The notes beneath the pieces were generated by a model. The model worked only from the letters and a program-made list of their open reading frames with translations, did no database searches and was not told the DNA's origin. The translations under genes and the position numbers were made by a program. From NCBI GenBank assembly GCA_019347695.1, contig JAHWKT010000019.1, forward strand, positions 1 through 33,756: a stretch of DNA of 33,756 nt, in the 5' to 3' direction. The stretch comes from Actinomycetota bacterium (GTDB lineage: Bacteria > Actinomycetota > Nitriliruptoria > Euzebyales > JAHELV01). Of this stretch, positions 28,422-33,756 are shown in pieces. Position 1 is the first letter of the stretch, and each line of letters opens with the position of its first letter.

Positions 28422-28449
28422 TTGCATGCTTGTCACTATGAGTTATGCT
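28422..28449 (+). promoter_or_regulatory. Sigma-70-type promoter for a short transcript
   Basis: TTGCAT (28422-28427) and TATGCT (28444-28449) are separated by 16 bases, a good match to the consensus in otherwise GC-rich DNA. Transcription would start near 28456, and a perfect terminator hairpin begins at 28502, so the product would be about 85 nt. No protein gene starts between them. Confidence 0.65.
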
Positions 28450-28455
28450 GTGACT

Positions 28456-28541
28456 ACAGCGAGGTGAACGGCTCAAGCCCCCGCGGCCGTCACCTTGCTC
28501 CGACCGTCCGGGCGAGCGCCGACGCCCGGACGGTCACTTTT
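28456..28541 (+). ncRNA. Candidate small RNA of about 85 nt
   Basis: This stretch lies between a consensus-like promoter and an intrinsic terminator in the 442-base gap between moaE and the UPF0182 gene (28379-28820). It folds into a first stem, AGGTGAACGGC (28462-28472) with GCCGTCACCT (28486-28495, one bulge), whose loop contains CCCCC, followed by the terminator stem. Two hairpins with a C-rich loop recall the actinobacterial 6C RNA, but only one loop has five C residues, so that family is not claimed. It could also be an attenuator, but the terminator is about 280 bases before the next gene. Confidence 0.5.
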
Positions 28542-28543
28542 CT
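28502..28543 (+). terminator. Perfect 13-bp intrinsic terminator
   Basis: GACCGTCCGGGCG (28502-28514) pairs perfectly with CGCCCGGACGGTC (28523-28535), loop of 8 bases, followed by ACTTTTCT. It is the best Rho-independent terminator in the window. It could end the candidate small RNA and moaE read-through. From 28544 to 28820 I see no gene, only a possible promoter area for the UPF0182 gene. Confidence 0.9.
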
Positions 28544-28820
28544 GTCAGGACGATGGACCGCGACACCTGGGCACATGATCGTCGGGGCATGAGCCCCTCG
28601 ACTGGCGATGTCCGCCTGCGGCCCGGTTGGGGCGGCAACGCGGTCGCTGCGCGGAGCATCGGTGTCGTCGCCCACCGATCCGCGGCTATGGTTACCGCAT
28701 CGGGGCCACTCAGGCTGCCATCTGCACTCGGGCGCGGCAGGCTTACTACATGGGTCGATGGACGCGCCGTCGTCCGATGCCGGTCCTTGGCCCCGTCGCC
28801 CACGAGGAGAACACGACCTG

Positions 28821-31800
28821 ATGGAACTGCTGCAGGCCCTACGACAGCGATGGTGGCTCGTCGTGGGGATCCTTGTGATCGTCGTACTCGCGCTGTCGAC
28901 CCGCCTCGCCACCTTCTACACCGATGTCCTGTGGTTCCGCAGCATCGGTTTCGTCCGGGTCTTCTGGACGTTGCTGACGACACAGTTGGGACTTGGACTG
29001 GTCGCCGGGCTGTTCCTCACCGCCCTGCTCGCCGGCAACCTCATGCTCGCCCGCCGCCTGGCGCCGCGATACCGCATCCCGTCGCCCGCCGAGGAGAACA
29101 TCGAGCGCTACCGGACGCTCGTCGAACCGATCGCCAGGCCGCTGCTGCTGGTCGTCGCCGCCGTCGTCGGCGTCCTGTCCGGGCTCAACATCGCACCCGC
29201 CTGGCCGCGCTACGTGCTGTGGGCGAACGCCACCGAGTTCGGGCAGGTGGATCCGCAGTTCGGCCGCGACCTCGGCTACTTCGTGTTCGTCCTGCCGTTC
29301 CACACGCTGGTCAACTCGTGGCTGTTCACAGCGTTGGTCATCACCGTGCTGATGACGCTGGTGGCCCACTACGTGTTCGGTGGCATCCGCCCGCAGGCGC
29401 CCGGTCAGCGGCTGACCCCGCAGGTCAACGTGCACCTGTCGGTGCTGCTGGCCGCGCTGGTGGCGGTGCGCGCATGGGGCTTCTGGCTCGACCGCTACAT
29501 GCTCAGCTACTCCGAGCGCGGACAGGTGACCGGCCTGTCCTACACCGACGTCAACGCCCAGCTGCTGGCACTGCAGCTGCTGACGATCATCGCCGCGATC
29601 TGCGTCGTGCTGTTCCTGGTGAACATCCGCTTCCGCGGCTGGCTGCTGCCCGCCGCCGGTGTCGGCATCCTCGTGGTGGCTGCGGTGGTGCTGGCCGGCA
29701 TCTACCCCGCGATCGTGCAGCGCCTCCAGGTCGATCCACAGGAGCTGCCGCGGGAGCGCCCGTACATCGAACGCAACCTCGAGTTCACGCGGTTGGGGTT
29801 CGGTCTCGACGAGGTCGAGTTCGAGGACTTCCCGGCCGACGAGGAGCTCAGCGACCAGGCGATCCAGGACAACAAGACGACGCTGCAGTCGATCCGGCTA
29901 TGGGATCCGGCGACGCTGCAGAACACCTACCAGCAGCTGCAGGAGCTGCGGCCCTACTACGACTTCCGTGATGTCGACGTCGACCGCTACGAGCTCGACG
30001 ATGACCTGCAGCAGGTGATGCTCAGCGTCCGCGAGGTCGCGACCAGCGACCTGCCGGCTCAGGCCAGGACCTGGCAGAACCAGGCACTGGTCTACACCCA
30101 CGGCTATGGCGTGGTGTCCAGCGCCGTCAGCACACGTCGGCGCGACGGCCAGCCGGTGTTCCTGGTCAAGGACATCCCGCCCCAGGGCGTGTCCGAGCTG
30201 GAGATCGAGAACCCGCGGATCTACGTCGGCGAGAACCCGCCGCCCTACTCGATCGTCGGCGCGACCGAGGACGAGCTCGACTTCCCGCTCGAGGAGGGCC
30301 GGCCCGTCGAGCGCTTCCGCTACGACGGCGCCGACGGCGTGCCGGTCGGCTCGCTGCTGCGGCGGCTGGCGTTCGCGCTGCGGTTCGCCGAGCCGAACAT
30401 CCTGCTGTCGAACCTGATCACCGACGACTCGAAGATCATGTACAACCGCTCGGTCCGCGACCGGGTCCAGGACGTGGCGCCGTACCTCAAGCTCGACCAC
30501 GATGCCTACCCCGTCGCGGTCGACGGGCGGGTCAAGTGGGTGCTCGACGCCTACACGACGACCGACATGCTGCCGTACTCGCAGCGAACGAACCTGGCGT
30601 CGGCGACCGTGTCGGAGCAGACGCAGCTGCTCGCCTCGCCCGACCAGGAGGGGCAGCTGGTGCTCCAGGAGCGGTCCGTGCAGGTCCCGGGCCTGGAGGG
30701 CTCGGCCAACTACATCCGCAACAGCATCAAGGCCGTGGTCGACGCATACGACGGCACCGTGACACTGTACGTGGTCGACCCCGACGACCCCGTCATCCAG
30801 GCGTGGGCCAACGTGTTCCCCGACAGCTTCACCAACGTCGGTGAGGCCTCGGAGGACCTGCGGAGCCACTTCCGCTACCCGGAGGACATGTTCCGGGTGC
30901 AGTCGAAGCTGTTCGAGACCTATCACATCCCCGGTGCCGAGGCGTTCTACAACAAGGACGACGCGTGGACCATCCCGCAGGACGCCCAGTTCCAGGCGAA
31001 CAACGCCGACTCCAATGAGCAGCGCCTGATGCGCCCCTACTACCTGCTCATGCGGCTGCCGGGCGAGACCACCGAGGAGTTCGCGTTGATCCAGCCGTTC
31101 TCGCCCGAGCGGCGCGACAACCTGATCGGCTGGCTGGCGGGTCGCAGCGACGGTGAGCAGTACGGGCAGCTCAAGGCGTACCGCATGCCGCCCACCAAGA
31201 CCGTGTTCGGGCCGGAGCAGATCCAGGCGCGGATCAACCAGGACGACGCCGTCAGTGAGCAGATCACGTTGTGGAACCAGTCAGGTTCCAGCGTGCGCTA
31301 CGGCAACCTGCTGGTCATCCCGGTCGAGGACTCACTGCTGTACGCTCAGCCGCTGTTCCTACGCGCAGACCGCTCCGAGATCCCCGAGTTGCGACGGACG
31401 GTGCTCGTGTTCGGCGACCAGGTCGTCATGGAGGATACCCTGCAGGCCGCCCTCGAGGCACTGTTCGGGTCGGCCGCGCCGGATGTGGAGCTGCCGACGG
31501 GTGCCGAGCAACCCGTGGCCGGCGAAGGCGTGCCGGAGGGTGAAGGCACCGGCGACGAGCAACCGTCGGCGCCGGGTGGTGCCAGCCTCGACGACCCCGC
31601 CGTCGCCGACGCGCTCCAGCGCGCCATCGACGCGTTCGACGCCGCGGACCAGGCGTTGACCGACGGCAATCTCGGCGAGTACCAGGAGCGGACACGTGAG
31701 GCGGAGCAGGCACTGCGCGAGGTCGAGCGCCTGCTCGGGGGCGACAGCTCGGCCGCCGACACGGCGGATGACGCAGCCGGCAGCGGGCTGAGCGCGAAGC

Positions 31801-31870: not shown

Positions 31871-31944
31871 CGCGAGGTGGAGCAGTTCGGTAGCTCGCCG
31901 GGCTCATAACCCGGAGGTCGCGGGTTCAAATCCCGCCCTCGCAA
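31871..31944 (+). tRNA. Initiator tRNA-fMet (anticodon CAU)
   Basis: The 74-base sequence folds into a full cloverleaf with anticodon loop CTCATAA, T-arm GCGGG-TTCAAAT-CCCGC and discriminator A. Two initiator hallmarks are visible: a C1 x A72 mismatch at the top of the acceptor stem (CGCGAGG against CCTCGCA) and three stacked G-C pairs in the anticodon stem (GGG/CCC). CCA is not encoded. A tyrosine integrase gene ends 90 bases downstream, pointing toward it, so the 3' end of this tRNA is the likely attachment site of an integrated element. Confidence 0.96.
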
Positions 31945-31948
31945 CTCC

Positions 31949-32033: not shown

Positions 32034-33239
32034 TCACATCCCGTCCTGGGTGGCGTCGTGCTCACGGCTGGGGTCTGCGGCGGGGTCGTCGATGAGCGCG
32101 GAGAGGCGCCGTACGGCGTCGGACTGCATGCCGGGGATGACGTGGGCGTAGGTGTCGAGGGTGAAGGCGACCGAGTGGTGACCAAGTCGCTCGGAGACGA
32201 TCTTGGCGTTCACGCCGGCCTGCAGCAGCAGCGTCGCGTGCGTGTGCCGGAGATCGTGCAGCCGGATCTTGGGGAGCCCGAGCGCGGCGACCCGCCGGCG
32301 GAACAGCTCGCTGAACCAGTCGGGGTGGATCCACAGCCCATCCTCGCGGGTGACGACGAGGTCGAGGTCGTGCCAGGCAGGTCCGCACATCAGGCGGTGC
32401 TCGGCCTGCTGGGTGCGGCGGGCCCGCAAGGCGGCGACGGTGCGCTCGTCGAGGTCGACGACGCGGCCGGAGCGGTTGCTCTTCGGTTCGGACAGCTCGG
32501 GGTGCCCGTCGACGTTGGCCAGGCGCTGGCGGACGGCCAGCCGCGCCGCCGTCAGGTCGACGTCGGCCCAGCGCAGGCCGAGCAGCTCGCTGCGGCGCAG
32601 CCCGGTCGTTCCGGCCAGCACCCAGGCGTAGCCGAGGCGCTCGTCGAGGTCCTCGCTGAGGAAGCGGCGCAGCTGTGCCGGTGTCCATGTCCGCATCGTG
32701 CGCCGGCGCGAGGCGACCGCCGACCGCTGGGACGGCGGGTCGGCCAGCGCGGCGACGTTGCGGTTGACGCGGCCCCAGCGGACCGCGTCCTTGAGCGCCT
32801 TGCGGACGATGACGTGGATCTCCCGGACGGTCTTGGGCGACAAGCCGCCGGTGCCGTCGACGCGGCCGGCGGTGATCAGCTCGGCGTAGAAGGCGTTGAG
32901 ATGCGCGGGGGAGAGGCGCTGCAGCGGTATCTGCCCGAGGCGGGGGATCACGTGGCACCGCACCTTACGGGCGTACTCCGTCCAGGTGGTGGCCCGCAGC
33001 GTCGGCGGGCGCATCGCCGGCAGCCACTCGTCCGCCAGGAACCCGCCCAGCGTCAGCGAAGAGGCCGCCACGTACGTGCCGGTGTCCAGCGTGCGCAGCA
33101 CCTCCCGCAGCGCCCGGTCGGCGTCGCGCTTGGTGGCGAACCCACCCTTCATCCGCTGCCGGCGACGACCGTCGCCGTGCGCGCCGACGTCAACGACGTA
33201 CGACCACGTCTTGCCGCGCCTGAAGACCCTGCCGTTCAT
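32034..33239 (-). CDS. int: Tyrosine-type site-specific integrase
   Basis: This 401-residue recombinase begins MNGRVFRRGKTWSYVVDVG, an arm-type DNA-binding domain, followed by a SAM-like core-binding domain (about 65-165; SLTLGGFLADEWLPAM, WTEYARKVRCHVIPRLG) and the catalytic domain (185-370). Catalytic residues are visible: Arg215 (TGLRRSELLGLRW), Lys253, His328 and Arg331 (HDLRHTHA), His354 (LGHHS) and nucleophile Tyr364 (DTYAHV). Length and order match phage and integrative-element integrases of actinomycetes. The start at 33239 was chosen over 33578, which lies in foreign or wrongly joined sequence. It points toward the initiator tRNA, as integrases next to attL usually do. No excisionase or other element gene is visible before the contig breaks. 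Confidence 0.94.
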   Translation of the reverse strand: MNGRVFRRGKTWSYVVDVGAHGDGRRRQRMKGGFATKRDADRALREVLRTLDTGTYVAASSLTLGGFLADEWLPAMRPPTLRATTWTEYARKVRCHVIPRLGQIPLQRLSPAHLNAFYAELITAGRVDGTGGLSPKTVREIHVIVRKALKDAVRWGRVNRNVAALADPPSQRSAVASRRRTMRTWTPAQLRRFLSEDLDERLGYAWVLAGTTGLRRSELLGLRWADVDLTAARLAVRQRLANVDGHPELSEPKSNRSGRVVDLDERTVAALRARRTQQAEHRLMCGPAWHDLDLVVTREDGLWIHPDWFSELFRRRVAALGLPKIRLHDLRHTHATLLLQAGVNAKIVSERLGHHSVAFTLDTYAHVIPGMQSDAVRRLSALIDDPAADPSREHDATQDGM

Positions 33240-33290
33240 GCTCGCAGTAGACACCCACCCTGCGACAGCCACTCGACGATTTCTCGACCC

Positions 33291-33299
33291 TGTGGATAA
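33291..33299 (-). promoter_or_regulatory. Single consensus DnaA box upstream of int
   Basis: TGTGGATAA is the exact reverse complement of TTATCCACA and lies 52 bases before the integrase start. A single copy can occur by chance. It may sit in the int promoter region. Confidence 0.35.
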
Positions 33300-33374
33300 C
33301 CGGAACCTTATGCGTCGCGAATCCGCACCGGCTGCCCGTCCGCGCCACCACCGATCGTGAGGAGGCTTGACCCC

Positions 33375-33475
33375 GTGACCGCACTGGACCAGTACGCCAG
33401 CGTCCATTACCTCGTTGAGGACGTGCAGGCCGCCGTCGACTTCTACACCGGTCATCTCGGCTTCACGCTGAACAC
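33375..33475 (+). CDS. VOC/glyoxalase-family protein, N-terminal fragment
   Basis: From GTG 33375 (GAGGAGG about ten bases upstream) the frame reads [20 protein letters not shown] then [12 protein letters not shown], the first beta-alpha-beta unit of vicinal-oxygen-chelate proteins, which bind a metal in glyoxalase and dioxygenase enzymes. After GFTLNT the sequence changes abruptly into an RND transporter while staying in frame, so only about 33 residues belong to the VOC gene. It has a normal ribosome site, so the native gene start is probably real and the remainder lies elsewhere. Confidence 0.75.
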
Positions 33476-33756
33476 CATGTCGCTGCTCGGCCTCTCGCTT
33501 GCGATCGGCATCCTCATCGACGACGCGATCGTGGTGCGCGAGAACATCGTGCGCCACGTGGAGATGGGGAAGGACCACTACACCGCGGCGCGCGAGGGCA
33601 CCGACGAGATCGGCCTCGCGGTCGCGGCGACGACCTTCTCGATCGTCGCGGTGTTCGTCCCCGTGGGCTTCATGTACGGCGTGGCGGGGCAGTGGTTCAA
33701 GCCGTTCGCGCTCACCATCGCCTGCGCCGTGCTCGTCTCGCTGCTCGTCTCCTTCT
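33460..33756 (+). CDS. RND efflux transporter fragment, probably joined by misassembly
   Basis: From [20 protein letters not shown] through [17 protein letters not shown] to [20 protein letters not shown] the sequence is the fourth-helix region of AcrB/MexB-type RND pumps, including the conserved DD pair of the proton relay. It starts mid-protein, with no N-terminal half, and runs off the right edge. Leucine codons here are mostly CTC rather than the CTG common in the rest of the window, suggesting another genome. The switch point (about 33459-33475) encodes GFTLN, which suits both families, the kind of short shared sequence at which assemblers join unrelated reads. Confidence 0.8.

Follow-up and report, generated by a model that had tools for sequence, protein, structure and literature searches.

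A strongly conserved candidate small-RNA gene with a single C-rich loop between moaE and a UPF0182 gene in Nitriliruptoria

Between moaE and a UPF0182 gene of a draft actinobacterial genome (the source genome G000, 215 contigs) lies a compact plus-strand unit (28422–28543), in which promoter-like hexamers, a hairpin with a C5 loop, and an intrinsic terminator follow one another and are under strong purifying selection from exactly the promoter to the terminator. Positions refer to the window, i.e., the whole 33,756-nt stretch of DNA that was analyzed. Judged from its sequence and that of its relatives, the unit very probably encodes a genuine regulatory RNA, and the reading that we prefer, with a probability of roughly 60%, is a stand-alone gene for a non-coding small RNA whose C5 loop would act in trans as in 6C/B11 RNA. 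What the comparisons confirm is a narrowly distributed, strongly selected candidate small-RNA gene and not a new kind of system. A limited literature search found no small RNA described for Nitriliruptoria. If real, the unit is a clean, strongly selected small RNA, and a sister genome that carries the terminator alone opens the birth or loss of such a gene at a pre-existing mRNA terminator to study. It also raises the question of whether one C-rich loop is sufficient for 6C-like regulation.

Anatomy of the unit

The putative promoter consists of a −35-like hexamer, TTGCAT (28422–28427, plus strand), and a −10-like hexamer of the TAnnnT type, TATGCT (28444–28449, plus strand), separated by a 16-nt spacer. 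In G002, a Nitriliruptorales MAG and sister genome, TTGCAT is kept and coincides with the left edge of the conserved block, and TATGCT is identical. An earlier, sequence-only reading had called this promoter good; the hexamers and their spacing are indeed present, but the adjective was too generous, as they match the E. coli sigma-70 consensus at only three of six (−35) and four of six (−10) positions and a consensus promoter scan made no call at TTGCAT-16-TATGCT. The promoter is credible for its conservation and not for its match to the consensus. No further copies of it were found. An inverted repeat spanning the −10 hexamer, GTCAC-N13-GTGAC (28432–28454, identical in G002), may be an operator; neither G000 nor G002 holds a second copy when up to three mismatches are allowed. 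The PafBC/RecA-NDp and CRP/GlxR motifs, compared with this dyad by eye, were rejected on account of wrong spacing or orientation.

Transcription from the unit’s own promoter would start at about A28456, the predicted +1, and would deliver a non-coding RNA of ~88 nt with two stable hairpins (28456–28543, plus strand), a prediction that is consistent with the identity to G002 (98%), the folding energy, and the covariance model matches. Hairpin 1 (28458–28499, plus strand) is built from 10 bp and 5 bp with a bulged A28468 and an 11-nt loop, CAAGCCCCCGC, which exposes a run of five Cs (28478–28482, plus strand). It is followed by an intrinsic terminator (28502–28543, plus strand; tail ACTTTTCT), also kept in G002, whose stem-loop (28502–28535; tail ACTTTTCTGT) comprises 13 perfect pairs and an 8-nt loop, AGCGCCGA, that has no C-run. 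A terminator scan found one terminator, compared with 0.4 ± 0.6 expected from 1.2 kb of shuffles. The terminator would end the small RNA and may also serve the upstream moaE transcript. The TTGCAT-16-TATGCT arrangement, the bulged stem with a CCCCC loop, the perfect 13-bp terminator, and the T-run had all been described in the sequence-only reading and were borne out on the sequence.

The 94-nt fold has a predicted energy of −55.3 kcal/mol compared with −34.0 ± 3.5 kcal/mol for shuffles (z = −6.05), and hairpin 1 alone gives a z of −4.64. Such energies are not exceptional in this GC-rich window, where 14 of 8418 scanned 88-nt windows are at least as stable, and because folding energy alone is unexceptional in GC-rich DNA, the decisive evidence is conservation.

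Conservation and distribution in relatives

In a DNA search of relatives, the unit was recovered from G002 with 98% identity over 123 nt. For comparison, identity between the two moaE genes is 79% at the protein level and 76% at the nucleotide level, and it drops to 51% at fourfold-degenerate sites. Conservation in sister genomes had been proposed as a check on the unit, with a lack of conservation in either stem as a refutation; in G002 it holds for the promoter, both stems, the loop, and the terminator alike. When the window was aligned to the G002 contig, 28422–28541 ranked first among 10,476 alignable 120-nt windows with 98.3% identity (mean 79%), exceeding every aligned protein-coding stretch; the runner-up (93.3%) lies within the UPF0182 gene. 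The conserved block reaches from GGGTTGCAT to the T-run with few differences and gives way to divergent sequence directly outside, so that its edges are the −35 hexamer and the T-run and hardly anything further, where the sequence-only reading had placed the unit.

Within the RNA, the sole substitution from G000 to G002 is C28494 to T, opposite G28463, which turns a G-C into a G-U pair and keeps the stem; the T-run carries an indel. The promoter region (28422–28455) is conserved as well as the RNA itself, and the hairpin loop, the bulge, and the GTCAC-N13-GTGAC repeat are all invariant. Taken together, these sequences are strong evidence that promoter, RNA, and terminator are selected together as a unit, with one informative change between the two species; covariation cannot be shown because the whole unit is present in only two genomes.

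The unit is single-copy in the genome, and among three sister genomes it is found whole in one (G002), whereas another keeps the terminator only. The latter, G001, is as close as G002 by moaE and retains the terminator behind moaE (94% over 48 nt), with promoter and hairpin 1 replaced by unrelated sequence; in the third sister, G003, nothing of the unit was found. Since G001 has the terminator alone and G003 has none of it, either the unit arose ahead of a terminator that was already there, or G001 and G003 have lost it. A covariance model searched against 66 genomes of the class and 396 of the phylum gave full matches only in G000 and G002 and a terminator-anchored match in G001, and when 84,980 species genomes (from which G000 itself was possibly left out) were scanned for the exact pattern, the sole match was on G002 contig JAHELV010000038.1. 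Beyond these, no convincing relative was found in the 66 class, ~400 phylum, and 84,980 species genomes, and searches of plasmids and viral contigs gave no match. Weak model matches outside the genus (G119, G036, G012, and G261) were rejected, as none has the C5 loop; the G119 match is a GC-rich terminator that looks alike but has no C-loop hairpin. Short blastn matches in the class (E ~1e-4 to 1e-2) mostly cover the palindromic GC-rich terminator region, do not comprise the whole unit, and were judged to be due to chance.

Proposed mechanism and comparison with 6C RNA

6C RNA is known as B11 in mycobacteria and as cgb_03605 in Corynebacterium glutamicum. It is named for its two stem-loops, each of which carries about six Cs (PMC4046766), and pairing through C-rich loops is an established mechanism of 6C/B11 (PMC12395582). 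By analogy, the C5 run of hairpin 1 is proposed as a seed for G-tracts (PMC12395582): the RNA would act in trans without coding, and its exposed loop would pair with G-tracts of target mRNAs close to their ribosome-binding sites, thereby blocking translation in the manner of 6C/B11. We consider this C5-loop/G-tract pairing the most likely mechanism. A search with the loop’s 10-nt complement revealed no target site common to G000 and G002, and a longer loop complement showed no enrichment over the control, a result that speaks neither for nor against pairing because genomes of this kind contain many short G-tract seeds. Four points weigh against the preferred reading, namely that the whole unit is carried by only two genomes; that in Mycobacterium marinum B11 the activity resides in the terminator loop and not in the other C loop (PMC12395582), whereas the terminator loop here has no C-run; that the promoter hexamers are poor; and that G000 and G002 share no loop-complement site.

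In plan, the unit resembles 6C: it is an intergenic actinobacterial unit of ~90 nt with its own (here predicted) promoter, two serial hairpins spanning the whole 6C model, the last of them a terminator, and a C-run in an apical loop. It differs from 6C in that the C-run is confined to loop 1, in its neighborhood, and in its restriction to part of one genus. It fails on two tested features that define 6C, the bit score and C-runs in both loops, and works plausibly, by analogy, like 6C. A comparison by covariance model had been suggested by the sequence-only reading, and its outcome is mixed: the best plus-strand Rfam match is indeed to 6C (RF01066) over its full length (1–75 of 75), yet at 25.7 bits it stays below the gathering cut-off of 47. 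At the gathering threshold, Rfam reports only a tRNA in the window.

It is tentatively conceivable, and on balance somewhat doubtful, that the unit represents a new small-RNA family with a lineage-restricted distribution in Nitriliruptorales, in which a promoter and one C-loop hairpin were added before the older terminator behind moaE, and which converged on the 6C mechanism, or is a stripped-down form of it, with a single C-rich loop.

Scr3920 (RF02828; 26.2 bits compared with a cut-off of 88) gave a weak match on the opposite strand that stems from the palindromic terminator and was judged to be due to chance, and a class-specific 6C model was dropped as its alignment of hairpin 1 was unreliable. 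In G041 (L020, 1501–1576), also of the class, a 6C-like two-hairpin candidate of 29.2 bits has a run of six Cs in its first loop that its second loop does not match, and is perhaps an independent form with a single C loop.

Alternative explanations

That the unit is the genus’s own highly diverged 6C ortholog, having lost the C-run of its terminator loop, is unlikely, although the full-length alignment is the only 6C match in G000 at E ≤ 10, no convincing canonical 6C was found elsewhere in four genomes of the genus, and the order does have 6C above the cut-off, in G008 (48.3 bits). The match in G000 has an E-value of 0.44 for the whole genome and that in G002 scores 24.9 bits, again below 47, while unrelated places in G002 and G003 reach 27.3 and 27.5 bits. 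Neither moaE nor the UPF0182 gene was found within 1.5-kb flanks of the other 6C matches of the class. The absence of Cs from the terminator loop, the absence of the unit from G003, and its reduction to the terminator in G001 also speak against orthology. No intermediates between the unit and 6C were found by covariance model in the 66 class and 396 phylum genomes.

Small RNAs associated with 3′-UTRs, which have their own promoter and share the terminator of the mRNA, are a class known from the literature. The unit is like them in following moaE on the same strand, with a single terminator between the two, and in that G001 keeps a terminator after moaE but not the small RNA; it is unlike them in that read-through from moaE into the unit is here a supposition. 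A location 123 nt past the moaE stop codon on the same strand, together with the terminator kept in G001, would also suit a mere 3′-UTR element of moaE, that is, a terminator plus an RNA-stabilizing or protein-binding hairpin 1 with no independent transcript. We regard this as quite improbable, since 28422–28455, for which such an element has no need, is as conserved as the RNA. Equally improbable is an RNA that serves as a protein sponge instead of pairing with mRNAs, or conserved DNA that is mainly an operator: the invariance of loop, bulge, and inverted repeat in both species would fit, whereas the single C-rich loop offers no repeated protein-binding motif to a sponge, and an operator leaves the conserved hairpins and terminator unexplained. 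A role in cis, as leader or attenuator of the UPF0182 gene, is very unlikely. The unit does precede that gene on the same strand in G000 and G002, yet the start codon lies ~278 nt away (roughly double that in G002) across poorly conserved DNA, the terminator in G001 precedes a DivIVA-like gene and not UPF0182, and the predicted fold shows no competing antiterminator pairing. Scarcely credible is a small protein gene, even though a GTG-started open frame passes through the RNA: there is no ATG, the GTG lacks a ribosome-binding site, the frame runs across the terminator, the single base change in the RNA would replace a Leu with Phe, and in G002 the T-run indel puts the frame out of register.

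Genomic neighborhood

Both flanking genes named in the sequence-only reading were corroborated by Pfam, moaE upstream (PF02391, plus strand) and the UPF0182 gene downstream (PF03699, plus strand). The UPF0182 gene probably starts at the ATG at 28821 and not at the longest-ORF start at 28608; GAGGAG lies upstream of this ATG, and homology to the sister genomes begins at ~28794–28802. Past the terminator, the gene order in G001 is the DivIVA-like gene, then UPF0182. The DivIVA-like gene, whose Pfam match is below the cut-off, lies between moaE and UPF0182 in G001 (L102, 11510–12661) and G003 and is missing from G000 and G002, the two genomes with the small-RNA unit.

Further along the window, after a tRNA-Met gene (31871–31945), comes a minus-strand ORF for a tyrosine-recombinase-like integrase (32034–33578). 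The alignments to G001, G002, and G003 all end at 31945–31948, the 3′ end of the tRNA-Met gene, which is where they should stop if an element has inserted into the tRNA gene.
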